Virus record (IMG/VR): IMGVR_UViG_3300031612_001303
Location: 1-25,478 of that record
Reading direction: 5' to 3' (one strand)
Length of the DNA: 25,478 bases
Origin: a virus
The notes under the pieces were generated by a model. The model did no database searches. It was not told where the DNA came from and saw nothing but the letters and a program-made list of their open reading frames with translations. Below are positions 1 to 22,933 of the stretch, in pieces (position 1 is the stretch's first letter; every line of letters begins with the position of its first letter). The position numbers and the translations under genes were made by a program.

Positions 1-12
1 GCAGCGGCCGGA

Positions 13-97
13 ATTATGCGGAGTGACAACCGCCAAAAGCCCCTGCGGCGCCCATCACGGGCGCCACAAACTCCGCATAATCATCCGCTCGGCATAA
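13..97. repeat. Inverted-repeat cluster resembling recombinase sites
   Basis: ATTATGCGGAGT at 13-24 is repeated as its perfect 12-base reverse complement at 70-81. A related copy, CTCGGCATAA, lies at 88-97, in the same orientation as the second and 17 bases further on. A separate 7-bp hairpin (GGCGCCC at 47-53, GGGCGCC at 59-65) lies between the arms. No gene is apparent in 1-165. Short imperfect repeats in tandem and inverted orientation are typical of binding sites for tyrosine recombinases at the ends of mobile elements; that function is inferred, and no recombinase gene is in view. Confidence 0.5.
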
Positions 98-165
98 ACC
101 GTGGTGAGCATCGCACGATCCTTCGCCCTGCGGCGCCTGTTCGAGGCAATCCGGATGCGGGGCGA

Positions 166-732
166 CTAGATGGAGTAGCTGCCGAAGGGTTTTCCGAACT
201 TCTCGACGCCGGACTTGCCCAGCAACGTCAGCTTGTTGTGCAGCTTGTGCCCGGGAGATGCGTTTCGGGCCTCGCGAGCCCAGACCTTGGCGTCAATTTC
301 CCAGACATCGAAGTTCGTTCCGTCCGGGGTAAAAGCACAGAGAACGACATCGATCCGCTCGAGAAGAGTGTTGAGACATCCCCATTGGGTGTTGCGTCCC
401 TTCGCCGTGCGCAGCGTAGCTCGCCGACCGTCAGGTAGTTTGAGTTCTGTTGCCACAGGGCTGACGAGGTCGCCGATTTTGCTCGCAAGTGCCCGGCCAG
501 CCGAGATGCCAAACTCATACCCCTCGCGGCCAGTGAACTCGTCCTGTCCGCCGCCCGGCTTGGAGGGTTTCGTCGATACGACCTTGGGAGCCTTCGGCAG
601 GAATTCGTCCAAGGCACGAGCGGCAACGGATGCAGCCGATAGACTAGGGTTCTGAGTCAAGAATTCGCCGAGACGGGATGCCAGATTGGGATCCAGTCTA
701 ACCGTGATCGAGTCTACCATGCGCGCCACCAT
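166..732 (-). CDS. Ribbon-helix-helix protein with possible PD-(D/E)XK nuclease core
   Basis: A 188-residue protein not assigned to a named family. Residues 7-45 look like a ribbon-helix-helix DNA-binding fold: a short strand (SITVRLDP) followed by two amphipathic helices. A linker rich in Lys, Pro and Gly (about 46-65) leads to a C-terminal domain. There D128 in ERIDVV and D147-A-K149 in VWEIDAKVW, each on a predicted strand, have the spacing of a PD-(D/E)XK nuclease site. This reading is inferred. Start is uncertain: Met1 (732) has no clear ribosome binding site, while Met5 (720) has GGTGG about 6 bases upstream. The gene points away from the phage late genes, beside the repeat cluster at 13-97, and has a long palindrome 45 bases upstream, which suggests autoregulation. 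It may belong to a flanking element rather than the phage. Confidence 0.6.
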   Translation of the reverse strand: MVARMVDSITVRLDPNLASRLGEFLTQNPSLSAASVAARALDEFLPKAPKVVSTKPSKPGGGQDEFTGREGYEFGISAGRALASKIGDLVSPVATELKLPDGRRATLRTAKGRNTQWGCLNTLLERIDVVLCAFTPDGTNFDVWEIDAKVWAREARNASPGHKLHNKLTLLGKSGVEKFGKPFGSYSI

Positions 733-4641: not shown

Positions 4642-6197
4642 TGTCGGCGACCTGGTTCGACCACGCCATCGCAACGGTGGCCCCGCGCATGGCCGCCCGC
4701 CGCGTGATGGCGCGGCAGGCCTTCGAGACCCTGACGCGGGGCTATGACGGGGCCGCGCGCGGGCGTCGCACCGAGGGCTGGCGCGCGCCGGGGTCCTCCG
4801 CCGACACCGAGATTGGCGTCGCCGGGGCGCTGCTGCGCGACCGCATGCGCGATCTCGTGCGCAACAACCCGCATGCGGCCAAGGCCGTGGCGGTGCTGGT
4901 GAACAACATCATCGGCGCGGGCATCATGCCCCGCGCCGCCAGCGGCGACGATACGCTCGACCGGAAGGTCGATGCTCTCTTCGAGCGCTGGACGGCGGAG
5001 TGCGACGCCGACGGCCAGCTCGATTTCTACGGCCTGCAGACGCTGATCTGCCGCGAGATGGTCGAGGCGGGCGAGGTGCTGGTGCGCCGCCGCCTCCGGC
5101 GCGCGAGCGACGGCCTGCCCGTGCCGCTGCAATTGCAGGTGCTGGAGGCGGACTTCCTCGACGCCACCAAGTCCGGCGCCCTCGGTGCGGGACGGCTGGT
5201 GCAAGGGATCGAGTTCGACCCGGTCGGCAAGCGCCGGGCCTACTGGCTGCATGCGGAGCACCCGGGCGACGCCTATGGCGCCTTGCAGAACGGGTTGCAG
5301 AGCCGCCCGATCCCCGCGGCCGAGATCGCGCACATCTACGAGAAGCAGCGCACGCAGGCGCGCGGCGTTCCCTGGGGCGCGCCGGTCATACGGTCCCTGC
5401 GCGATCTCGACGATTACGAGGTGGCGGAACTGGTCCGCAAGAAGACCGAAGCCTGCGTCACCGCCATCGTGTTCGGCGACGACGAGGCGCAGCAGGGCAT
5501 CGCGCCCTCCGTGGTCGACGCCGATGGCAACCGGGTGGAGCAGTTCGAGCCGGGGCTGATCGCCTATGCGCGCGGCGGCAAGGACATCCGCTTCAACCAG
5601 CCCTCGGCCACCGGCGGCTACGGCGAATACAAGCGGGCCAGCCTGCACACGATCTCGGCCGGGTTCCGGGTGCCCTACGAGCTGCTGACCGGGGACCTGT
5701 CCCAGGTGAACTATTCCTCGATCCGCGCGGGGCTGGTCGAGTTCCGCCGCCAGATCGACGCGGTGCAGTGGCAGCTGTTCATTCCGATGTTCTGTGCGCC
5801 GGTCTGGCGCTGGTTCACCGAAGCGGCGTGGGCCGCGGGGCAGATCCCGTCTCCGACCGTACCGGTCGAATGGTCGCCGCCGAAGTTCGAGGCGGTGGAT
5901 CCACAGAAGGATGCGATGGCGAACCTGCTCTCGATCCGCTCCGGCACCATGACGCTGGCCGAGGTGATCGCCAAACAGGGCCGGAACCCCGACGCGGTGC
6001 TGGCCGAGATAGCGGCGACCAACGCCAAGCTCGACGCGCTGGGGCTGGTGCTCGACAGCGACCCGCGCCGCGTCACCAAGACCGGCAGCGCGCAGACCAG
6101 CGATCCGGCGACCGATCCCGCCGCCGACGCACCGGATACCGACGACTCCTCCGCCGACGCGGACAACGACCCGGCGCAGGCCGACCAACAGGACTGA
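4641..6197 (+). CDS. Phage portal protein, lambda gpB family
   Basis: A 518-residue portal subunit; twelve copies form the ring through which DNA enters and leaves the head and to which the terminase docks. The N-terminal stretch LLRDRMRDLVRNNPHAAKAVAVLVNNIIGAGIMPR (about 65-100) is a hallmark of the lambda portal family. Further family features include a wing region with LQLQVLEADFLD and a central stretch ending in ELLTGDLSQVNYSSIRAGLVEFRR. The C-terminus (about 485-518) is a strongly acidic low-complexity tail (DTDDSSADADNDPAQADQQD), probably disordered. The start overlaps the gpW-like stop, which indicates translational coupling. The next gene starts 5 bases after its stop. Confidence 0.95.
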   Translation: MSATWFDHAIATVAPRMAARRVMARQAFETLTRGYDGAARGRRTEGWRAPGSSADTEIGVAGALLRDRMRDLVRNNPHAAKAVAVLVNNIIGAGIMPRAASGDDTLDRKVDALFERWTAECDADGQLDFYGLQTLICREMVEAGEVLVRRRLRRASDGLPVPLQLQVLEADFLDATKSGALGAGRLVQGIEFDPVGKRRAYWLHAEHPGDAYGALQNGLQSRPIPAAEIAHIYEKQRTQARGVPWGAPVIRSLRDLDDYEVAELVRKKTEACVTAIVFGDDEAQQGIAPSVVDADGNRVEQFEPGLIAYARGGKDIRFNQPSATGGYGEYKRASLHTISAGFRVPYELLTGDLSQVNYSSIRAGLVEFRRQIDAVQWQLFIPMFCAPVWRWFTEAAWAAGQIPSPTVPVEWSPPKFEAVDPQKDAMANLLSIRSGTMTLAEVIAKQGRNPDAVLAEIAATNAKLDALGLVLDSDPRRVTKTGSAQTSDPATDPAADAPDTDDSSADADNDPAQADQQD

Positions 6198-6202
6198 CCT
6201 TC

Positions 6203-8278
6203 ATGGACACGATGATCGAACTGCCGGCCATGCGCCGGTCGGCGGAGCTTGCGCCGAACACGGCAGATGCCGACAGCCGCACCGTCGAGGTGGTCTGGTC
6301 GGCCGGGGCCCGCGTCCGCCGCGCCACCTTCTTCGGCGAGCCCTATGACGAGGAACTGAGCCTCGACCCGGCCCATGTCCGGCTCGACCGGCTGAACGCG
6401 GGCGCGCCGTTCCTGAAAGTGCACGAGCTCGATACGCTCGACGCGGTGATCGGCTCGGTCGTGCCGGGTTCGGCGCGGATCGAGAATGGGCGCGGCATCG
6501 CCCTGGTGCGGATCAGCGAGCGTGCCGATGTCGAACCGATCTGGCGCGACATCCAGGCCGGGCATATCCGCGCGGTCTCCATCGGCTACCAGGTCCACCG
6601 CTTCGAGGTCTCGAAGCCCGAGGCCGCCCGCGAACTCTGGCGCGCGGTGGACTGGACACCGTTCGAGGTCTCTGCCGTCGCGGTCGGCGCCGACCCCGCC
6701 GCGGGCTTCCGCGCCCAGCATCCCCTTCATGACTGCGTCCTTCACCGCCGGGACGCCCCCACACCGCAAGGAGCATCCCCGATGACGGACCAGACCCAGA
6801 CCCCGGCGCGCGACGCCGCCACCCCCGCCACCACCCAGCCGACCGAGCCGGTCGAAACCGAGGATACCACCATGACCGAGCTGAAAGCGGCTGCGCCCGA
6901 CCCGAAGGTCGCGGCCAGCGAACCGAAGGCCCACGCAAGTGAGACGCGCAGCCAGCCGAAAACGCAGGCAACGCCCGCGCCCGATACCGAAGCGGTCGCC
7001 ACCCGCGCCCGCGAGGCCGAGCGCGACCGCGTCTCCACCATCTACGATCTGGCCGGACGCCTGAACCTCGAGCGCGGATTCGCCGAGGATCTGGTCAAGC
7101 GCGGCATCAGCGTCGACGAGTCCCGCCGCCTGATCCTCGACCAGGTCGCCGCGAAATCCGACGAGACCCGGACCTTCCCCCATGTCTCCGTCCCTCTCGG
7201 CGGCCGGGACGAGCGCATCACCCGCCGCGACGCGGTGGCGAACGCGCTCCTGCACCGCTACAGCCCGACGCTGTTCCAGCTGGAGGACGCCGCCCGGCAG
7301 TATCGCGGCATGACCCTTCTGGAGCTTGCCCGCGAAAGCCTCGGCAATGCCGGGGTCAACACGCGCGGCCTGTCGCGCGACGAGGTGGCGACGCGGGCGC
7401 TGCACTCGACCTCGGACTTCCCCGAGATCCTGTCCGCCGTGACCAACAAGACCCTGCGGCAGGCCTACGAGGCCTATCCCCGCACCTTCATGCTTTTCTG
7501 CCGCCAGGTGCTCGCCACCGACTTCAAGGCCATGCACCGGGTCCAGCTCGGTGAGGCCCCGCAGCTGCTGGAAGTCGGCGAGAGCGGCGAGTTCAAGCGC
7601 GGCACGCTCGGCGAGAGCAAGGAGAGCTACAAGGTCAAGACCTATGGCCGGGTGGTCGCCATCACCCGCCAGACGCTGATCAACGACGATCTCGACGCCT
7701 TCACCCGCATCCCGGCGATGTACGGAAACTCCATCGCTCAGCTGGAGTCGGACGTGGTCTGGGGGATCATCACCGCCAACCCGGCGATGGCCGACGGCAA
7801 CGCGCTGTTCCACACCACCCACAAGAACCTCGCGGGCACCGGCGCGGCGCTCGAAGTGAGCAGCGTCGGTGCGGCCCGCGCGGCGATGGCCAAGCAGACG
7901 GGCCTTGACAAGAAGACGGTGCTGAACGTCCGGCCCGCCTTCCTGATCGTGCCCGCCTCGCTGGAACTGAAGGCCGAGCAGCTGGTCGCGCAGAACCTCG
8001 TGCCCGCCGCGACGTCCAGCGTCGTGCCGCAGTCGATCCGCACGCTCGCGCCGATCAGCGAGCCCCGGCTCGACGCCGCCAGCGAGACAGCGTGGTATCT
8101 GGCGGCCAGCCCGAACCAGATCGACACCATCGAGTACGCCTATCTCGAGGGTCAGCAGGGCGCCTACATCGAGACCCGCAACGGCTTCGACGTGGACGGC
8201 GTCGAGATCAAGTGCCGCCTCGACTTCGGCGCCAAGGCCATCGACTGGCGCGGCCTCTACAAGAACCCGGGCGCGTAA
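6203..8278 (+). CDS. Prohead protease/major capsid protein fusion
   Basis: A 691-residue polypeptide combining two head functions. Residues 1 to about 185 resemble phage prohead proteases: VRLDRLNAGAPFLKVHELD, IRAVSIGYQVHRFEV and DWTPFEVSAVAVGADPAAGF, with the H-then-S order of HK97-type assembly proteases. Residues about 190-300 are charged, Thr/Pro/Ala-rich and helical, fitting a scaffold delta region to be cleaved off. The rest (about 330-691) is a capsid fold with NKTLRQAYEAYPRTFMLFCRQV, KVKTYGRVVAITRQTLINDDLDAFTRIP and a conserved end WYLAASPNQIDTIEYAYLEGQQGAYIETRNGFDVDGVEIKCR. Such fusions are a known annotation class in proteobacterial phages. The start ATG 6203 is 5 bases after the portal stop. 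An internal in-frame start (6782) is listed separately. Confidence 0.9.
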   Translation: MDTMIELPAMRRSAELAPNTADADSRTVEVVWSAGARVRRATFFGEPYDEELSLDPAHVRLDRLNAGAPFLKVHELDTLDAVIGSVVPGSARIENGRGIALVRISERADVEPIWRDIQAGHIRAVSIGYQVHRFEVSKPEAARELWRAVDWTPFEVSAVAVGADPAAGFRAQHPLHDCVLHRRDAPTPQGASPMTDQTQTPARDAATPATTQPTEPVETEDTTMTELKAAAPDPKVAASEPKAHASETRSQPKTQATPAPDTEAVATRAREAERDRVSTIYDLAGRLNLERGFAEDLVKRGISVDESRRLILDQVAAKSDETRTFPHVSVPLGGRDERITRRDAVANALLHRYSPTLFQLEDAARQYRGMTLLELARESLGNAGVNTRGLSRDEVATRALHSTSDFPEILSAVTNKTLRQAYEAYPRTFMLFCRQVLATDFKAMHRVQLGEAPQLLEVGESGEFKRGTLGESKESYKVKTYGRVVAITRQTLINDDLDAFTRIPAMYGNSIAQLESDVVWGIITANPAMADGNALFHTTHKNLAGTGAALEVSSVGAARAAMAKQTGLDKKTVLNVRPAFLIVPASLELKAEQLVAQNLVPAATSSVVPQSIRTLAPISEPRLDAASETAWYLAASPNQIDTIEYAYLEGQQGAYIETRNGFDVDGVEIKCRLDFGAKAIDWRGLYKNPGA
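6768..6784 (+). promoter_or_regulatory. Internal ribosome binding site and start within the capsid fusion
   Basis: AAGGAG at 6768-6773 is followed 8 bases later by ATG at 6782, in frame with the fusion. Use of this start would yield a 498-residue scaffold-plus-capsid protein without the protease domain (MTDQTQTPARD onward). It lies exactly at the boundary between the protease domain and the low-complexity scaffold-like segment. In lambda a nested start within gene C gives the Nu3 scaffold, so a nested product has precedent. Actual use is inferred. Confidence 0.55.
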
Positions 8279-8688: not shown

Positions 8689-8999
8689 TGAGCGCCTTCG
8701 CCGCCGCCGTCGGCGCACTCTTCGCCGATCCGAACATCGGCCGGGATGCGGTCTACATCGCCGACGGCGGCGCGGCCGTGCTTGTGCGCGCCGTCGCCCG
8801 GCGCGCAGACGCGGTCACCGACTTCGGCGATGCGCGGCTCTGGTCCGAGACCACGAGGATCGACCTGCGCGTGGCTGAGGTGCCGACACCGCGTCCCGGC
8901 GACCGCATCGAGATCGACGGCGACGCCTTCCTCATCCAGGGCGAGCCCGTCCGCGACCGCGAGCGGCTGGTCTGGACCGTGGATCTGAGGCCCGCGTGA
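8688..8999 (+). CDS. Head-tail joining protein, gpFII-like
   Basis: A 103-residue protein that probably sits below the portal and provides the tail-docking surface, like lambda gpFII. It has a short N-terminal helix (SAFAAAVGALFADPNIGRDAVYI) followed by beta strands: AAVLVRAVARRADAVTDFGD, TRIDLRVAEVPTPRPGDRIEIDGDAFLIQGEPVRDRERLVWTVDL. This pattern fits the phage attachment family. The ATG overlaps the preceding stop by one base, and its TGA overlaps the following GTG start. Position between the decoration gene and the DUF6441 gene supports the assignment. Confidence 0.8.
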   Translation: MSAFAAAVGALFADPNIGRDAVYIADGGAAVLVRAVARRADAVTDFGDARLWSETTRIDLRVAEVPTPRPGDRIEIDGDAFLIQGEPVRDRERLVWTVDLRPA

Positions 9000-9625
9000 A
9001 ACTGAAGCTCGACATCGATCCCGACATTGTTGCGATGATGGCGGCCGAGGTCGCGGCGGGCGAGCGCGCGGTGACGGCAGCTATGCGCGAGGCCGGAACC
9101 GGCCTCAAGGCCGCTTGGCGCGGCCAGATTACCGGCGCGGGGCTCGGCACACGGCTGGCCAACTCGATCCGAAGCCAGAACTTCCCGAGGTCGGGCGAGA
9201 GCCTCGATGCGGCGGCGCTGGTCTGGTCCAAGGCGCCGGTCATCGTCGGCGCGCATGACACGGGGCCGTTGATCCGCTCGAAGAACGGGTTCTGGCTGGC
9301 GATCCCGCTGCCTGCGGCGGGCAAATCCCTGCGGGGCGGCCGGATCACGCCCGGTGAATGGGAACGGCGACGCGGGTTGCGCCTGCGCTTCGTCTATCGC
9401 CGCACCGGCCCGAGCTTGCTGGTCGCGGAGGGACGGCTGAACACGAAGGGACAGGCGGTGGTGTCGCGCTCCAAGACCGGGCGCGGCAAGGTCACCGCGC
9501 CGATCTTCCTTCTGGTGCCGCAGGTGAAGCTCCCGAAGCGGCTGGACCTCGCGCGGGACGCAGACCGGGCGCTGGACAGCGTGCCGGGGCTAATCGTGGC
9601 AAACTGGGTGGAGGGGCGGATTTGA
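8996..9625 (+). CDS. DUF6441 family phage protein (head-tail/minor tail)
   Basis: A 209-residue protein with the features I associate with DUF6441: KLDIDPDIVAMMAAEVAAGERAVTAAMREAGTGLKAAWRGQI at the N-terminus, SKAPVIVGAHDTGPLIRSKNGFWLAIPLP in the middle and GRITPGEWERRRGLRLRFVYRRTGPSLLVAEG. Its place between the joiner and the tail terminator corresponds to that of HK97 gp10-type or lambda gpZ-type proteins, but the exact role is unknown. It uses a GTG start inside the sequence GTGA shared with the previous stop. It is the last phage gene before the mer cargo and converges on merA, with 50 bases between the two stop codons. Confidence 0.75.
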   Translation: MKLKLDIDPDIVAMMAAEVAAGERAVTAAMREAGTGLKAAWRGQITGAGLGTRLANSIRSQNFPRSGESLDAAALVWSKAPVIVGAHDTGPLIRSKNGFWLAIPLPAAGKSLRGGRITPGEWERRRGLRLRFVYRRTGPSLLVAEGRLNTKGQAVVSRSKTGRGKVTAPIFLLVPQVKLPKRLDLARDADRALDSVPGLIVANWVEGRI

Positions 9626-9663: not shown

Positions 9664-9685
9664 CGCCGGTTCTGGTCACCCGGCG
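9664..9685. other. Hairpin at the merA 3' end, without a T tract
   Basis: CGCCGG (9664-9669) and CCGGCG (9680-9685) form a 6-bp stem whose loop contains the merA stop codon. Neither strand is followed by a T run, so it does not look like a working intrinsic terminator. The convergent gap 9626-9675 holds no other candidate. Confidence 0.35.
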
Positions 9686-11112
9686 CAGCAGCTGAGTTTC
9701 GCGACGTCCTTGTCGAAAGTCTGTGCGGCGAGCCTCACGCCCTCGACCGTGGTGAGATAGGGAAAGATCGTCTCGCCGAGCGCCTTTGTCGTCATGCCGA
9801 ACTTGAGCGCCATGGCGAGCGTCTGGACACTGTCGGCTCCCTCCGGCGCCATGATCACGCCGCCCAGCAGGCGGTCGGTCGCCCGGTCCGCGACGAGCTT
9901 GATCAGGCCGCGCGTGTCGCGGGCGGCGAGCGCGCGGGGCACGTTGTCGAGGGTCAGCACACTGGTCTTGACGTCATGACCCGCCGCGCGCGCCTGCGCC
10001 TCGGTCAGCCCGACGCCTGCAACCTGCGGATCGGTGAACACCACCCACGGCATGGCGGTATTGTCGTAGCGTTCAGTCCCGCCCAGCACGGCGTTGCGGG
10101 AAGCGAGCTTGGCGCCATAGGCGGCCATGTAGACGAACTGGTCGCGGTCGGTGACGTCGCCCGCCGCGAAGATGCCGGGCTTCGTGGTCTGCATGTCGTC
10201 GCCAACCCGGATCGCACCGCGTGCGTCGGTCTCGACGCCCATCTCCGCGAGGCCCAGCCCCTCGGTGTTGGGCGCGCGTCCCGTCGTCAGGACGAGGCGG
10301 TCGGCCGTCAGTTCGCGCTCCGCGCCATTCACCGTCACGGTCAGCACCGCACGGTCCCCGTCGCGCCGCGCGGCGTGATAGGTTGCGCCGTCAAGAACCG
10401 TGACACCCTCGGCGCGCAAGGCCTCGGTGAGCGCCTGCGCCACCTCCGGCTCGGTGCGCGGCAACAGGCGCGAGCGGCAGACGATGGTGACGCGGGTGCC
10501 CATCCGCGCCATCATCTGCGCGAGTTCCACGCCGATATAGCCGCCGCCGAGGAAGATCAGGCTTTCGGGCAACCGGTCCAGCTCCAGCAGCGACGTGCTG
10601 TCGAGCGTTGGGACGTCCGGGATACCGTGGATGTCGGGCACGGCGGGTCGGCCGCCGGTGGCGACGATGACCTTGAGTGCCGTGATCCTGCGCCCGCCGA
10701 CATCGACACCGCCGGGAACGAGCCGCGCCGGACCCTCGTCGAGATAGGTCACACCGTCGTAGCCCGGCAGCAGGTCGGCGTACTTCTTCTGGCGCAGCGT
10801 CGCGACCAGATTGTCCTTGGCCGCGACGAGAGCGGTCCAGTCGGCGACCTTCGCTTCGCCGACGAGGCCAGGAAACCGGGACGCCGCCCGCGCGCCGTGC
10901 ACGGCCTCGGCCGCGCGGATCATCGTCTTGGAGGGCACGCAGCCCACGTTCACGCAGGTCCCGCCGATGGTTCCATGGCCGATCAACGCGACGCGCTTGC
11001 CTCCCTCGGCGGCGGTGATCGCGGCCGAGAACCCGGCCGATCCGGCGCCGATCACGGCAAGGTCGAAATCGCCCCTGGGCGCGCAGCAATCGTCTTTCAT
11101 CAAGTCATCCAT
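9676..11112 (-). CDS. merA: Mercury(II) reductase MerA, short form
   Basis: A 478-residue cytoplasmic FAD-dependent pyridine nucleotide-disulfide oxidoreductase that reduces Hg(II) to volatile Hg(0) with NADPH. Residues 17-30 (DLAVIGAGSAGFSA) form the FAD-binding fold. The redox-active site is GGTCVNVGCVPSK with C53 and C58. GGGYIGVELAQMMARMG (about 190-206) is the NADPH-binding motif, FAAGDVTDRDQFVYMAAYGAKLA is the second FAD motif, and the C-terminal pair C475-C476 (LSCCAG) passes Hg(II) into the active site of the partner subunit. These motifs separate MerA from dihydrolipoamide dehydrogenase and glutathione reductase. The N-terminal heavy-metal (NmerA) domain found in Tn501 MerA is absent; instead a short tail carries C9-C10. 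It is last in merTPFA, 4 bases after merF. Confidence 0.97.
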   Translation of the reverse strand: MDDLMKDDCCAPRGDFDLAVIGAGSAGFSAAITAAEGGKRVALIGHGTIGGTCVNVGCVPSKTMIRAAEAVHGARAASRFPGLVGEAKVADWTALVAAKDNLVATLRQKKYADLLPGYDGVTYLDEGPARLVPGGVDVGGRRITALKVIVATGGRPAVPDIHGIPDVPTLDSTSLLELDRLPESLIFLGGGYIGVELAQMMARMGTRVTIVCRSRLLPRTEPEVAQALTEALRAEGVTVLDGATYHAARRDGDRAVLTVTVNGAERELTADRLVLTTGRAPNTEGLGLAEMGVETDARGAIRVGDDMQTTKPGIFAAGDVTDRDQFVYMAAYGAKLASRNAVLGGTERYDNTAMPWVVFTDPQVAGVGLTEAQARAAGHDVKTSVLTLDNVPRALAARDTRGLIKLVADRATDRLLGGVIMAPEGADSVQTLAMALKFGMTTKALGETIFPYLTTVEGVRLAAQTFDKDVAKLSCCAG

Positions 11113-11116
11113 CCGT

Positions 11117-11338
11117 TCAAGTGGTCTGGCGCCGCTGCCGCCGCCAGACCGCGTACACGGTCAGCGCGACGAAAAAGGCGAGCGCGGGCAGCAGAACGTA
11201 GTCGAGCCAACGCAGCCAGGCCGACAGGCCCACGGCGCCCAGAAGCACCACGAGCACCGGCGTGAAGCAGCAGAGCGCCGCGATGACGGTTCCTACGATC
11301 CCTGTCGCGATCAGCTTGCGGTCGGTCTGCTCGGTCAT
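11117..11338 (-). CDS. merF: Mercury transporter MerF, short
   Basis: A 73-residue inner-membrane Hg(II) uptake protein with two membrane segments (about 9-35 and 45-65). The vicinal pair C23-C24 in ALCCFTPVLVVLLGAVGLSAW and the LDYVLLPAL stretch are MerF hallmarks. It should take Hg(II) from MerP or the periplasm and hand it to MerA. Classic MerF (81 residues) has a second vicinal Cys pair near the C-terminus; this one ends WRRQRRQTT and lacks it. Start ATG 11338 lies 4 bases after the merP stop and gives the family's usual N-terminus. An in-frame ATG at 11374 would overlap merP by 32 bases and is less likely. Confidence 0.93.
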   Translation of the reverse strand: MTEQTDRKLIATGIVGTVIAALCCFTPVLVVLLGAVGLSAWLRWLDYVLLPALAFFVALTVYAVWRRQRRQTT

Positions 11339-11342
11339 TCCG

Positions 11343-11648
11343 TCAGCCCGAGACGCGCGCCGGGTAGCCTGCATTGGCCGACGCAGTTGCGATGGCGTCG
11401 GCGCTGGTCGCGGCAGTGTCGAAGACGACCGTGGCGGTGCGCGCCTCGAAGTCGATCTCGACGGTGCGCACGCCCTCGACGCCCTCCATCGCGCGCTTCA
11501 CCGTCACTGGGCAGAGCGCGCAGGTCATTTTGTCGACCGCGAAGGTGACGGTCTGCTCGGCGGCGACGGTCTGCGCGACGGCTGGGATGGCAATGATCGG
11601 CGCGACGGCGGTCAGGCCGAACAAGGCGAGTGCAAGGATCTTCTTCAT
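11343..11648 (-). CDS. merP: Periplasmic mercury-binding protein MerP
   Basis: A 101-residue protein with a signal peptide (MKKILALALFGLTAVAPIIAIPAVA, probable cleavage after about residue 25) followed by a heavy-metal-associated domain. The metal site is MTCALCPVTVKRAM with C43 and C46; most MerP sequences have MTCAACPITV, so A-to-L in the middle is a minor variation. It captures periplasmic Hg(II) as a bis-thiolate and passes it to MerT or MerF. It lies 18 bases after merT in the same leftward operon, with AAAGG as a modest ribosome binding site. Confidence 0.95.
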   Translation of the reverse strand: MKKILALALFGLTAVAPIIAIPAVAQTVAAEQTVTFAVDKMTCALCPVTVKRAMEGVEGVRTVEIDFEARTATVVFDTAATSADAIATASANAGYPARVSG

Positions 11649-11666
11649 GTGGATGGCCTTTCGGGG

Positions 11667-12056
11667 TCAGTAGAGAAGCGGGGCCCACCAGTCGATGGTG
11701 AGCGCGGCGACGACGAGGATCAGGGAAGCCCAGAGCGCGCTCTTGGTGATGCGCGCCGAGGATGGGCGCGCACAGTAGGAACCGGGCTCGCAGACGGTCT
11801 GCTTGCGGAAATACACCTGCCAGAAACCCGCCGCGATGAAGCCGAGCGCGATCACGGCGAAGATCGGCTTGTAAGGCTCCAGAGCCGTCAAGTTGCCGAT
11901 CCAGGCGCCCGAGATGCCGAGAGTCAGAAGCACTAGCGGCCCGATGCAGCAGGCCGAGGCGAGAAAGGCGCCCACCACACCGCCCGCCGCGAGCCAGCCC
12001 TTTCGGGCGGGGCGATCCGCGCCCGTGCTGTCCGTTCTGTCGTCAGTCAGCGCCAT
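11667..12056 (-). CDS. merT: Mercury transporter MerT
   Basis: A 129-residue inner-membrane Hg(II) importer with three predicted membrane segments (about 22-44, 63-82 and 107-125). The vicinal pair C36-C37 in SACCIGPLVLLTLGISGAW lies in the first segment, and C89 and C95 (VCEPGSYC) lie on the cytoplasmic loop, matching the two Cys pairs of Tn501 MerT. ATG 12056 is chosen over the further upstream in-frame ATG because AGAGGTG lies just before it and the longer form would read through the promoter and operator. First gene of the Hg-inducible merTPFA operon, divergent from merR. Confidence 0.95.
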   Translation of the reverse strand: MALTDDRTDSTGADRPARKGWLAAGGVVGAFLASACCIGPLVLLTLGISGAWIGNLTALEPYKPIFAVIALGFIAAGFWQVYFRKQTVCEPGSYCARPSSARITKSALWASLILVVAALTIDWWAPLLY

Positions 12057-12087
12057 GTCGCGCACCTCTCGTCTGTGATTGACGATG

Positions 12088-12118
12088 GGTGTAGGGTCTG
12101 TAGCAACTACAGGCTCAA
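12088..12118 (-). promoter_or_regulatory. mer operator-promoter with 19-bp spacer
   Basis: Leftward -35 TTGAGC is the complement of 12113-12118, and -10 TACACC is the complement of 12088-12093, exactly 19 bases apart. The spacer contains the perfect dyad CTGTAG (12098-12103) and CTACAG (12107-12112) around CAA. An over-long 19-bp spacer with a central dyad is diagnostic of promoters activated by MerR-family DNA distortion. The 76-base gap also holds TTGACG (12079-12084), a possible -35 for merR on the opposite strand, which would let MerR repress itself. Confidence 0.8.
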
Positions 12119-12132
12119 GAGGAAACTTGCCC

Positions 12133-12558
12133 ATGATCGATCACGAGCGCGAGAGCGGCTTCACACGCGGAGATCTTGCCCGGACGACCGGCTGCAACAT
12201 CGAGACGATCCGCTATTACGAGAAAACCGGCCTGCTGCCCGACCCGCCCCGGACCGACGCCGGCTACCGGATCTATTCCGCCGCGCACGCCACGCGCCTG
12301 CGCTTCATCCTGCGCGCCCGCGAACTCGGGTTCTCGATGGAGGACATTCGCGGGCTGATGGGGCTCGAAGACGGCACGGCGCCGACCTGCGCCGAGGTCA
12401 AGGAACGGACGGAGCGGCACCTTGCCGACGTCCGCGCGAGGATCGCGGATTTGCGGCGTATCGAATCCGTCCTTGCTGCAACCGCATCCAGGTGTTCGGG
12501 CGCCGAAGTCCCCGACTGTCCGGTGCTCGACGCGATTTCCAATTCGGCCGACCCATGA
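12133..12558 (+). CDS. merR: Mercury-responsive regulator MerR
   Basis: A 141-residue MerR-family activator/repressor. Residues 10-48 (FTRGDLARTTGCNIETIRYYEKTGLLPDPPRTDAGYRIY) are the winged helix-turn-helix; about 80-115 form the dimerisation helix. Candidate Hg(II) ligands are C86 (APTCAEVKE), C121 and C129 (RCSGAEVPDC), equivalent to C82, C117 and C126 of Tn501 MerR, though the last two are 8 apart rather than 9. Context with merTPFA makes Hg(II) the likely inducer. ATG 12133 has AAGAGGA 9 bases upstream; an earlier in-frame ATG at 12079 would start within the promoter. Its stop overlaps the start of the next phage gene (ATGA), so it may be cotranslated with the tail operon. Confidence 0.93.
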   Translation: MIDHERESGFTRGDLARTTGCNIETIRYYEKTGLLPDPPRTDAGYRIYSAAHATRLRFILRARELGFSMEDIRGLMGLEDGTAPTCAEVKERTERHLADVRARIADLRRIESVLAATASRCSGAEVPDCPVLDAISNSADP

Positions 12559-18967: not shown

Positions 18968-21900
18968 ATGGCAACTCTTGTTCTCGGCGTGGCTGGCGCA
19001 GCCATCGGCGGCAGCATCGGCGGGGCCATCCTTGGCGTGAGCGCGGCGACGATTGGCGGCTTCGTCGGCTCCGCCATCGGTTCGGTAGTCGACAGCTGGA
19101 TCATTTCCTCGCTGGCGCCCACCCAGCGGATCGAAGGCCCGCGGCTCGACAGCTTGCGCATCACGTCGTCCACCGAGGGCGCGGTGATCCCGCGGCTCTA
19201 CGGGCGCATGCGCATGGGCGGCAACATCATCTGGGCGACGGATTTCCGCGAGGAGACGAAGACCACCACGCAGGGCGGCGGCAAGGGCGGCGGGGGCGGC
19301 AAGGTCAAAACCACCGAGTATCTGTACTATGCCAGCTTCGCCGTGGCGCTCTGCGAGGGCCCGGTCACCGGCATCGGGCGCATCTGGGCCGACGGCAAGC
19401 CGATGGACCTCTCCGGTGTGACCTGGCGCTGGTATCCGGGAAGTGAGGCGCAGGCGGCCGATCCGTTCATCGCCGCGAAGATGGGGGCGGCCAACACGCC
19501 GGCCTATCGCGGCACGGCCTATGTCGTCTTCGAGGAGCTGCCGCTTGCGACCTATGGCAACCGGCTGCCACAGCTTTCCTTCGAGGTGTTCCGCCCGCTC
19601 GCCGATCCCGACACCGCCGAGGGGCTGACCCGCGCCGTCACCATGATCCCGGCCTCGGGCGAGTTCACCTACGCGACGCAGGCGATCCGCAAGACCGACG
19701 GCGGCGCGACGGTGCCCGAGAACCTGAACGCGCTGGCCGACTCCACCGACATGGTCGAAGCGCTCGACCGGCTGCAGGCGATGGCCCCGGCGGTCGAAAG
19801 CGTCAGCCTCGTGGTGGCGTGGTTCGGCGACGATCTGCGCGCGGGATCGTGCAAGGTGCGGCCGGGCGTCGAGGTCTCGGCTAAATCGACCACGCCCGCC
19901 AGCTGGTCGGTGAACGGCGTCAGCCGCGCCAACGCCTTCCTCGTGAGCCGCGACGATCAGGATCGCCCCGTCTATGGCGGCACGCCGTCCGACTTCGCGG
20001 TGGTGCAGGCGATCCAGGAGATGAAGGTCCGCGGGCTGCGGGTCACCTTCTACCCGTTCATCCTGATGGACGTGCCACCCGGCAACACGCTGCCGAACCC
20101 GTATTCCGACAACGCCGCGGAGACCGGTCAGCCTGCGTTCCCCTGGCGGGGGCGGATCACCTGTTCCCCGGCTGCGGGGTTCGCCGGGACGGTGGACAAG
20201 ACCGCCACGGCGGCAAGCCAGGTCGCGGCGCTGTTCGGCACGGCGACGCCCGCGAGCTTCAGCGTCGCGGGTCAGTCGGTTTCGTGGATCGGGCCATCGG
20301 GCGACTGGGGCCTGCGCCGCATGGTGCTGCACTACGCCCATCTCTGCGCGGCGGCGGGCGGGGTCGATGCGTTCCTGATCGGGACCGAGATGCCGGGGCT
20401 GACGACCATCCGCTCGGGCGCCAGCATCTATCCGGCGGTGCAGGCCTATCGGGAACTGCTCGCGGATGTGCGCTCGATCCTCGGGTCCGGAACGAAGATC
20501 GGCTACGCCGCCGACTGGTCGGAATACTTCGGCCACCAGCCGGGCGACGGCTCGGGCGACGTGTTCTTCCATCTCGATCCGCTCTGGGCCGATCCGGAGA
20601 TCGATTTCATCGGGATCGACAACTACATGCCGCTGTCGGACTGGCGCGATGGCTTCGAACATGCCGACGCGGCCGAGGGCTGGCCCGCGATCTACGACCG
20701 GGCCTACCTGCAGGGGAACATCGCAGGCGGCGAAGGCTTCGACTGGTTCTATACCTCGGCCTCAGATCGGTCGGCACAGGTCCGCACCCCGATCACCGAC
20801 GGTGCTGCGGGCAAGCCCTGGGTCTTCCGCTACAAGGATCTGCGCGCCTGGTGGTCGAACGCGCACTACGACCGCCCGGGCGGGGTGGAGAGCGGCACGC
20901 CGACAGCGTGGACGCCAGAGTCCAAGCCGATCTGGTTCACCGAGCTGGGCTGTCCCGCCATCGACCGGGGCACCAACCAGCCGAACGTCTTCTTCGATCC
21001 GAAGTCGTCGGAGAGCTTCACGCCACATTTCTCGCGGGGCTGGCGCGATGACGCGATCCAGCGGGCCTATCTCGAGGCGACATATCTCTGGTGGGGCGAG
21101 GCCGCGAACAACCTGCTGTCCTCGGTCTACGGCGGCCGGATGGTGCACGTCCCCGAATGCGCCGCCTGGACCTGGGACGCGCGGCCCTATCCGTTCTTTC
21201 CGACGCTGACCGACGTCTGGACGGACGGCGCGAACTGGCGGCTTGGGCATTGGCTGACCGGGCGTCTCGGCGCGGTGTCGCTGGCCGCACTGGTCCGGCA
21301 CCTCTGCCTGCGCGCCGGGCTGCCCGAGTCCCGGGTCGACGTCTCCGGCCTCTGGGGTGCGGTCGAGGGTTACGCCATCACCGCGCTGGAAAGCCCGCGC
21401 GCCTCGATCACCACACTGTCGCGGCATTTCGGCTTCGACGCGGTGGAGACCGAGGGCGTTATCCGGTTCGTCATGCGCGGGCGGGCGTCCGTCGCCACCC
21501 TCGCGCCCGACGATCTGGTGGCCGGTCGTGAAGGCGACGTGCTGGAACTGACGCGCGGCCAGGAGACCGAACTGCCGCAGGCGCTGAAGTGGCAGGTCGC
21601 CCGCGCCGACGAGGATTACGACGCGGCCCTCGTCGAGGCGCGGCGCATAACGGTGGACACGACGCGGATCGCCTCGGAGTCCTTCCCGATGGCTGTGCCA
21701 CCCGAGGAGGCCGAGCGCCGCTGCCGTCGCGCGTTGATGGAGGCGTGGGTGGGGCGCGAGACCGCGGCCTTCCGTCTGCCGCCCTCGCGCCTCGCCCTTG
21801 ATCCGGCCGACGCGATCCGACTCGCGCATGACGGACGGCTGGTCGATCTGCGGCTCGTCTCCATCGCCGACGCCGAGGCGCGCGGCATCGAGGCGGTTCG

Positions 21901-22933
21901 CCAGGACCGGGCGACCTACGACCTGCCGCCCGGCGATCCCCGCGCAGCCTCACTGACGCGCGCGGTGGTGTTCGGCGCGCCGGATGCGGTGCTGATGGAC
22001 CTGCCGCAGCTGACCGAGGACCAGCCCGAGCATCGACCGTTTGTCGCCGCGCACGCCGTTCCCTGGCCGGGCGAGATGGCGGTGTTCCGCAGCCCATCGA
22101 CGGACGGGTTCGAACTGCTGACCACGGCTCAGTCCCGCGCCCGGATGGGGGCACTGGTCTCCGACTTCTACCCGGGCCCCACCTCGCGCTTCGACCTTGG
22201 CAATGCGCTGGTGGTCGATCTGCTGACCGGCACGCTGGAGAGCGTCACCGACCTGACGCTGTTTGGCGGAGCGAACGCGCTGGCCATCGAGAGCGCGCCG
22301 GGGGGGTGGGAGATCGTGCAGGCGAGCACGGCCGAGCTGCTCGCGCCCGGCCGGTATCGGCTGACCCGGCTCCTGCGCGGCCAGCGCGGCACCGAAAGCG
22401 CCATGGGCAATCCGGCGCCCGCAGGCGCGCGAGTCGTGGTGCTGGACGCGTCGCTCGCGTCCCTGCCGATCGCTGAGGCTGATCTCGGCATCCCGTGGAA
22501 CTGGCGCATCGGCCCCGCGAGCCGCCCGGTCAGCGACGAGACCTATGTCGCGCAGGCTTTTACGCCCGAGGGCGTCGGACTGCGGCCGTTCTCCGTCGCC
22601 CATGTCGAACAGCCGTGGCGTCGCCCCCGCACGTCCGGCGATCTCACCATCCGCTGGACGCGCAGGTCCCGCGCGCTGGCGGCCGACAGCTGGGGCGGGC
22701 TTGAGGTGCCGCTGGCCGAGGAGCTGGAGGCCTACGAGGTCGAGCTCCTCGACGGCGCTGCCGTGAAGCGGGTGCTGAGCACGACCACGACCAGCGCGGT
22801 CTACACGGCCGCTCAGCAGAGCGCCGACTGGGGCGCGCCGCTCGGCCCCAGCGACACGCTCGACATACGCATCTTCCAGCTCTCCGCCCTCGCCGGGCGG
22901 GGCGCGCCCAAGATCGTCACGCTTACGTTCTGA
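18968..22933 (+). CDS. Host-specificity tail protein with GTA TIM-barrel domain
   Basis: A 1321-residue tail-tip protein of the GTA gp15 type, the functional counterpart of lambda gpJ. The N-terminus is a glycine-rich hydrophobic stretch (VLGVAGAAIGGSIGGAILGVSAATIGGFVGSAIGS, about 4-40). IPRLYGRMRMGGNIIWATDF and TTEYLYYASFAVALCEGP are typical of tail hub proteins. About residues 430-720 form a TIM-barrel-like domain with AFLIGTEMPGLTTIR, YAADWSEYFG, IDFIGIDNYMPLSDWRDG and IWFTELGCPAIDRGTNQPN; the E residues are placed as in glycoside hydrolases. A phage tail domain follows (about 730-1000). It probably contacts and perhaps cleaves surface polysaccharide, the latter inferred. Confidence 0.92.
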   Translation: MATLVLGVAGAAIGGSIGGAILGVSAATIGGFVGSAIGSVVDSWIISSLAPTQRIEGPRLDSLRITSSTEGAVIPRLYGRMRMGGNIIWATDFREETKTTTQGGGKGGGGGKVKTTEYLYYASFAVALCEGPVTGIGRIWADGKPMDLSGVTWRWYPGSEAQAADPFIAAKMGAANTPAYRGTAYVVFEELPLATYGNRLPQLSFEVFRPLADPDTAEGLTRAVTMIPASGEFTYATQAIRKTDGGATVPENLNALADSTDMVEALDRLQAMAPAVESVSLVVAWFGDDLRAGSCKVRPGVEVSAKSTTPASWSVNGVSRANAFLVSRDDQDRPVYGGTPSDFAVVQAIQEMKVRGLRVTFYPFILMDVPPGNTLPNPYSDNAAETGQPAFPWRGRITCSPAAGFAGTVDKTATAASQVAALFGTATPASFSVAGQSVSWIGPSGDWGLRRMVLHYAHLCAAAGGVDAFLIGTEMPGLTTIRSGASIYPAVQAYRELLADVRSILGSGTKIGYAADWSEYFGHQPGDGSGDVFFHLDPLWADPEIDFIGIDNYMPLSDWRDGFEHADAAEGWPAIYDRAYLQGNIAGGEGFDWFYTSASDRSAQVRTPITDGAAGKPWVFRYKDLRAWWSNAHYDRPGGVESGTPTAWTPESKPIWFTELGCPAIDRGTNQPNVFFDPKSSESFTPHFSRGWRDDAIQRAYLEATYLWWGEAANNLLSSVYGGRMVHVPECAAWTWDARPYPFFPTLTDVWTDGANWRLGHWLTGRLGAVSLAALVRHLCLRAGLPESRVDVSGLWGAVEGYAITALESPRASITTLSRHFGFDAVETEGVIRFVMRGRASVATLAPDDLVAGREGDVLELTRGQETELPQALKWQVARADEDYDAALVEARRITVDTTRIASESFPMAVPPEEAERRCRRALMEAWVGRETAAFRLPPSRLALDPADAIRLAHDGRLVDLRLVSIADAEARGIEAVRQDRATYDLPPGDPRAASLTRAVVFGAPDAVLMDLPQLTEDQPEHRPFVAAHAVPWPGEMAVFRSPSTDGFELLTTAQSRARMGALVSDFYPGPTSRFDLGNALVVDLLTGTLESVTDLTLFGGANALAIESAPGGWEIVQASTAELLAPGRYRLTRLLRGQRGTESAMGNPAPAGARVVVLDASLASLPIAEADLGIPWNWRIGPASRPVSDETYVAQAFTPEGVGLRPFSVAHVEQPWRRPRTSGDLTIRWTRRSRALAADSWGGLEVPLAEELEAYEVELLDGAAVKRVLSTTTTSAVYTAAQQSADWGAPLGPSDTLDIRIFQLSALAGRGAPKIVTLTF

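Follow-up and report, generated by a model that had tools for sequence, protein, structure and literature searches.

An in-frame start site within a phage protease-capsid fusion gene suggests a separate capsid precursor

The stretch of viral DNA analyzed here (IMG/VR virus record IMGVR_UViG_3300031612_001303, positions 1 to 25,478, 25,478 nucleotides; hereafter referred to as the window) carries a gene that encodes a prohead protease and a major capsid protein in one frame. We describe this fusion gene, P1, and a start codon inside it, ATG 6782, from which a shorter in-frame product, P2, would be translated. The features are listed in Table 1. The portal gene lies directly 5′ of P1, with its stop codon at 6195–6197.

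Table 1. Features of the fusion gene and its internal starts (SD, Shine-Dalgarno sequence; res, residues of P1; dG, SD energy)
Feature	Position	Strand	Details
Fusion gene P1	6203..8278	+	691 aa; single open frame, 691 codons
Start region of P1	6190..6205	+	AGGA 6190-6193, 9 nt, ATG 6203; SD dG -4.0
Internal SD AAGGAG	6768..6773	+	spacing 8 nt; dG -7.2; spacer CATCCCCG
Nested in-frame gene P2 (predicted)	6782..8278	+	498 aa: disordered tail, delta/scaffold-like segment and capsid; start ATG Met194
Candidate second nested start, ATG 6872 (Met224)	6872..8278	+	GAGGA 6860-6864, 7 nt; 468-aa product; putative function
P1 domain: putative S78-like prohead protease	res 1-182		AlphaFold2 model
P1 domain: disordered linker	res 186-257		AlphaFold2 model
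P1 domain: helical delta/scaffold-like segment, three helices	res 262-321		AlphaFold2 model
P1 domain: flexible joint	res 322-332		AlphaFold2 model
P1 domain: HK97-fold capsid	res 335-691		AlphaFold2 model and fold search

The domain limits come from an AlphaFold2 model built from 49 sequences (mean pLDDT 83.9). Over residues 22–691, P1 matched NF045541 (prohead protease/major capsid protein fusion) with 817.8 bits (cutoff 525), and it matched phrog_4523 with an E-value of 1e-256. Its score against NF045540 (ClpP-like protease/capsid fusion) was 381.6 bits, below the cutoff of 475, and the match covered only residue 202 onward. The C-terminal part matched PF25209 (Phage_capsid_4; 202.5 bits), and the protease part scored 20.0 bits against PF04586, slightly under the cutoff of 21; a relative with separate protease and capsid genes (L420) scores 40.0. 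His74 and Ser126, which we take to be the catalytic residues of the putative S78-like protease, are invariant across the 49 sequences. Foldseek retrieved HK97 and other capsids for the model with a probability of 1.00, identifying the HK97 fold, and the closest solved structures to the sequence profile of P1 in the PDB were three Mu gpT-type capsid chains.

The earlier note, made from the letters of the window, had pointed to AAGGAG with 8-base spacing ahead of an in-frame ATG at 6782, and this arrangement is present. ATG 6782–6784 lies 579 nt, or 193 codons, downstream of ATG 6203 and hence encodes Met194, so that a second in-frame start with its own ribosome binding site stands inside the protease reading frame, as in a nested gene pair. 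The note had also placed the site exactly where the protease ends and the scaffold-like segment starts. The first half of this description holds, as the protease fold ends at about residue 182; Met194 itself sits in the predicted disordered linker and opens a disordered tail, the first scaffold-like helix beginning only at residue 262. The 50-nt folding energy at 6782, −5.4 kcal/mol, ranks at the 99th percentile of low structure (mean energy, −15.4) and is near the value at the 6203 start (−6.3). The candidate start at 6872 is less open (−11.6, 80th percentile).

Conservation was examined among close relatives, a set consisting of the 80 best of 595 IMG/VR relatives and the window (81 sequences). 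Met194 is invariant in all 81 while the adjacent residues vary, and the Met224 codon is ATG in 80 and GTG in one. Residue 190, the glycine encoded within the SD sequence, is specified by GGA in 81 of 81, a codon that makes up 4.4% of the glycine codons in these genes. Synonymous variability, expressed as a ratio relative to codon usage, was 0.16 at residues 181–200, 0.10 at 201–220 and 0.21 at 221–240, the gene mean being 0.47; this is an approximately threefold drop around the internal site. Residues 1–20, behind the annotated start, gave 0.15. Within residues 189–224, third-position variation is lowered and first-position variation raised, a pattern for which we considered an overlapping gene in another frame. 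The depression of synonymous variation at residues 195–240 (about 6785–6922) reaches well past both SD sites.

For a more distant comparison, IMG/VR loci, annotated phages and the window were combined into 411 sequences, 409 of which yielded a capsid open reading frame (ORF). An S78-type N-terminus was present in 341 of these ORFs; 340 were retained and formed 67 clusters at 70% identity. The main test scored an SD 4-mer at 4–10 nt before an in-frame ATG, and a linker ATG with this feature was found in 55 of the 67 representative genes. Counted by codon, the 4-mer preceded 58/91 linker ATGs, 55/854 other in-frame ATGs and 7/96 out-of-frame linker ATGs (odds ratio 25.5). An SD 5-mer in the same spacing range sharpened the contrast to 44/91, 7/854 and 2/96, respectively (odds ratio 113), with such a linker ATG in 43 of the 67 genes. 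Permutation of the linker codons gave a mean of 10.5 genes and a maximum of 18, and resampling of synonymous codons a mean of 41.6 and a maximum of 50 of 67 (500 runs each), as compared with the 55 observed. When clustering was done at 50% identity, the site was kept in 26 of 32 clusters. Under a slightly wider rule (spacing 4–11), 324 of the 340 ORFs have an ATG with an SD 4-mer between −15 and +75 residues from the end of the protease profile.

The SD sequences of these genes are encoded by 20 different amino-acid strings (two or three residues, depending on motif length) and in three registers. In the column of Met194, Met occurs in 56 of the 67 representatives and Val in two more (L291 and L389, whose codon is GTG behind a strong SD). 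Between Arg170 and Glu273 no other column of the window is conserved to the same degree; the runners-up reach 69% and 66%, and no residue within 10 positions of Met194 exceeds 52% in its column. Because aligners favor placing Met on Met, the ATG and SD counts were kept independent of this column. The linker holds a single ATG in 46 of the 67 representatives. For the 56 Met-aligned representatives, the percentile of low structure at the internal start averaged 90, and it exceeded 80 in 43 of them.

Similar sites recur in other kinds of fusion. The ClpP-type set (F10, mEp043 and their relatives) comprised 159 full ORFs, reduced to 21 representatives at 90% identity. Among the alignment columns with at least three Met residues, one alone has an SD sequence in 21 of 21; it lies at the protease/scaffold boundary, with a spacing of 9–10 nt. 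Synonymous resampling gave an expectation of 10.3. We attach no probability to the 21/21 count because the rows are related. In fusions of an S78 protease with a PF05065 capsid, a linker ATG with an SD core was present in 12 of the 12 loci examined, about eight of them distinct. The PF05065 assignment was made by Pfam for L425 and L426 and by similarity for L596–L605, the latter being the 10 of 38 similarity-search loci that cover the capsid part; the other 28, mainly matches to the protease part, were left out. Behind the protease part, Rhodococcus phage RRH1 has AAGGA-9-ATG, Arthrobacter phage Maggie GAGG-5-ATG and Arthrobacter phage Circum AAGGAG-8-ATG; the linker limits in this and the PF05065 group were judged by eye. 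The six fused loci from Paenibacillus and other Firmicutes (L412–L414, L416–L418) have an SD core as well. Its distance from the ATG is 10–11 nt in five of the six, L412 additionally offering a TTG at 5 nt, whereas in L413 an ATG stands at 5 nt.

In six clostridial contigs (L419–L424) the protease and the capsid protein are encoded by separate, adjoining genes. The start of the capsid gene lies 15 or 5 nt past the protease stop codon, or overlaps it, and has a strong SD: the energies are −9.3 to −10.7 in L419–L421, and GGAGG is visible in L422–L424, where the starts were read by eye (L423 and L424 are near identical). Pfam assigned PF25209 and PF04586 on the capsid protein of L419 and on the protease and capsid proteins of L420. 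The capsid proteins of L419 and L420 have 493 and 496 residues, close to the 498 of P2, and the internal site of P1 corresponds to the place where these relatives start the capsid gene. Four other apparent split loci were rejected: L167, L187 and L415 had a broken frame, and the split in L407 came from a wrong capsid frame.

These results, taken together, give strong support, at the level of sequence comparison, to the prediction of the earlier note that the gene makes a separate capsid precursor beside the fusion: the site is conserved, it recurs among fusion types, and split relatives start their capsid gene at the corresponding place. The note had made its proposal depend on conservation among fusion-type relatives, and the site is both kept within the S78 type and found again in the other fusion types examined. 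In our view the nested cistron very probably makes the 498-residue scaffold-capsid precursor, the fusion supplying a minority of shell-anchored protease. We infer that ribosomes starting at 6203 would yield P1, a protease-linker-delta-capsid fusion, and those starting at 6782 would yield P2, the delta-capsid part without the protease. Most of the shell would be built from P2, made in excess; P1 would join assembly through its capsid domain and thereby place a minority of covalently anchored protease within the prohead. Once assembly is done, the anchored protease would remove the delta segment and itself.

That the P2 start sets the protease:capsid ratio is plausible. The internal SD of the window is stronger than the upstream one (Table 1), and the P2 SD is the stronger in 10 of 13 when the 12 annotated phages and the window are considered. 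We rejected SD strength as proof of the ratio, as the internal SD prevails in 33 of 57 representatives and the best upstream SD in 22.

Several observations weigh against our interpretation. The two SD strengths just mentioned differ modestly: there are 2 ties among the 57, the medians for the internal and best upstream sites are −6.2 and −5.8 (Wilcoxon, 0.008), and three phages (RcKemmy, RcOceanus and the Paenibacillus one) have the stronger SD at their annotated P1 start. (The 57 are the 67 representatives minus a group of six non-SD ones and four without usable candidates; both starts were given their best candidate.) Some of the SD signal comes from the choice of amino acids, because the synonymous null already reaches a mean of 41.6 of 67. 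Duplex energy alone (≤ −4.5) contrasts less, with 61/91 linker, 163/854 in-frame and 23/96 out-of-frame ATGs passing. The low synonymous variation runs about 40 codons past the SD, a length that is not fully explained. The ClpP-type spacing is 9–10 nt, and the 21 rows of that set, obtained with two queries, collapse to 5 clusters at 70%. An SD 4-mer also precedes other in-frame ATGs, one in Maggie and three in Circum. Finally, 16 of the 340 S78-type fusion ORFs fail the SD test.

Among these 16, L086, L091 and L092 have a GGGGA-type sequence ahead of the ATG, L291 and L389 are the GTG starts with a strong SD, L333 has a G-run ahead of its ATG, and L334 reads AAAGAGAG; the others are L368, L283, L286, L288, L289, L292, L293, L318 and L331. 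The representatives L283, L286, L287, L288, L292 and L318 each still have a linker ATG, and L287 enters the count of 55 through an AAGG that may be a chance occurrence. A control on ORF starts, crude in its choice of starts, covered the contigs of L283, L286, L287, L288, L290, L292 and L318, but not L289, L293 and L331. In these seven contigs an SD was found at the first ATG of 1/82 ORFs of at least 120 residues, at any ATG in the first 40 codons of 8/82, and at 69/651 later ATGs; the corresponding figures for the window are 4/18, 5/18 and 9/87.

The ATG and its SD might be a fossil, the relic of a once-separate capsid gene that lost its upstream stop codon, and no longer be used. In line with this, the split relatives begin their capsid gene from an SD next to the protease stop codon. 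Yet a relic should decay, and here the site is kept in most clusters under 50% identity (26 of 32), the SD letters are retained as the encoded residues change, synonymous variation is depressed at the site, and the site recurs in other fusion types; we regard a fossil as highly improbable. An equally slim chance is left to a constraint at the protein level, by which Met194 and its neighbors would be kept for a reason such as a self-cleavage site following the protease, with the SD as a by-product. The residues around the ClpP-type site are themselves similar, and the contribution of amino-acid choice to the synonymous null is what such a constraint would produce. Among the S78 fusions, in contrast, the residues flanking Met194 reach at most the 52% given above, the region is predicted to be disordered, the SD translates to 20 different amino-acid strings, residue 190 is always GGA in the close set, and among the 96 out-of-frame linker ATGs an SD precedes only 7.

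The internal start could also be used without setting a ratio, topping up the capsid protein or yielding isoforms from Met194 and Met224 that differ in their tails. Overall, there is little difference in SD strength between the two starts, and all 81 close sequences retain a start codon, ATG or GTG, at the 6872 position. Against this, the start stands between protease and capsid in the fusion types examined, and because of that position the nested product lacks just the protease. We judge this use of the start unlikely, while taking it seriously, and favor a nested cistron for the bulk precursor.

In HK97, the protease and the capsid protein (gp4 and gp5) are encoded by separate genes, unlike in P1; a delta-like helical segment precedes the HK97-fold capsid in P1 too. 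Herpesvirus UL26/UL26.5 are nested in frame, giving a protease-scaffold protein and a scaffold without the major capsid protein. P1 is a member of NF045541 and phrog_4523, whose descriptions name the fusion alone, without an internal start. The ClpP-like fusions (NF045540), with which the Gifsy-2 'tripartite' gene is grouped here, likewise have protease, scaffold and capsid in one frame, with a protease that differs from the S78-like one of P1; in the 21 F10/mEp043-type representatives an SD-preceded Met marks the junction of protease and scaffold. In lambda (NC_001416), codon 239 of C is the in-frame start of nu3, likewise inside the protease gene; C is an S49-type peptidase, unlike the S78-like protease of P1, and Nu3 ends with C, the capsid protein E being a separate gene. 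According to passages of PMC4378225, Mu has an in-frame scaffold start within its protease gene (I/Z), and a putative one, with an SD, is given for PaMx73 among the Mu-like phages of P. aeruginosa; there the nested product is the scaffold, and the major head subunit has a gene of its own. A start nested within a protease gene is therefore already known from lambda and Mu. P2 is not a scaffold free of the major capsid protein, as it contains PF25209, and a nested product that includes the major capsid protein is a variant on the known protease/scaffold nesting. In the passages of the literature available to us, an 'apparent fusion' of protease and capsid is likened to HK97 and lambda (Klyczek 2017, PMC5513430), protease-capsid fusions are treated in PMC9753647 and PMC12750149, PMC9671378 refers to a major capsid protein with a protease domain and mentions internal starts for lysins only, and PMC3121763 cites a Gifsy-2 paper with a 'tripartite' gene in its title. 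The open-literature listings and the passages on such fusions describe no internal start in a protease-capsid fusion.

The neighbors of P1 include genes for a GpA-type terminase, a lambda-type portal, a cement protein and head-tail attachment. Further downstream, at 9676–12558, a mercury-resistance cluster (MerA-like reductase, MerF, an HMA-domain MerP-like protein, MerT and MerR; Pfam, names partly inferred) sits among the phage structural genes, flanked by the gene at 8996–9625 and the one at about 12582. The gap between the counterparts of these two genes is 66 to 1540 bp in 35 loci showing both (L002–L081; larger inserts would exceed the 3-kb flanks of the loci), compared with 2960 bp for the window; in L018 it holds a merA-like gene. 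The gap resembles a site of cargo insertion among the head-tail genes. The product of 18968–22933 in the window is a tail protein that carries GTA TIM-barrel and Rcc01698-type domains, alongside the lambda-type portal and GpA-type terminase. A full-length copy of the fusion gene, 92.7% identical, is present in a 4.6-Mb Shinella record of a plasmid collection, a hint of an alphaproteobacterial host.

We consider it fairly probable that a general rule applies, namely that prohead protease-capsid fusions of tailed phages, with an S78 or ClpP-like protease and whatever the capsid family, keep an internal start between the two parts, which makes the capsid precursor the bulk product and the shell-anchored protease a minority. 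A protease on every shell subunit would mean hundreds of protease domains filling the prohead, to which a nested start would be a direct solution. For a family annotated only as a fusion, the nested start yields a prediction of the N-terminus and the mass that the main capsid precursor should have, and the protease dose in capsid maturation becomes testable through one start codon. If the rule is true, the fusion genes would be nested gene pairs, and annotations with a single protein would miss the main product.
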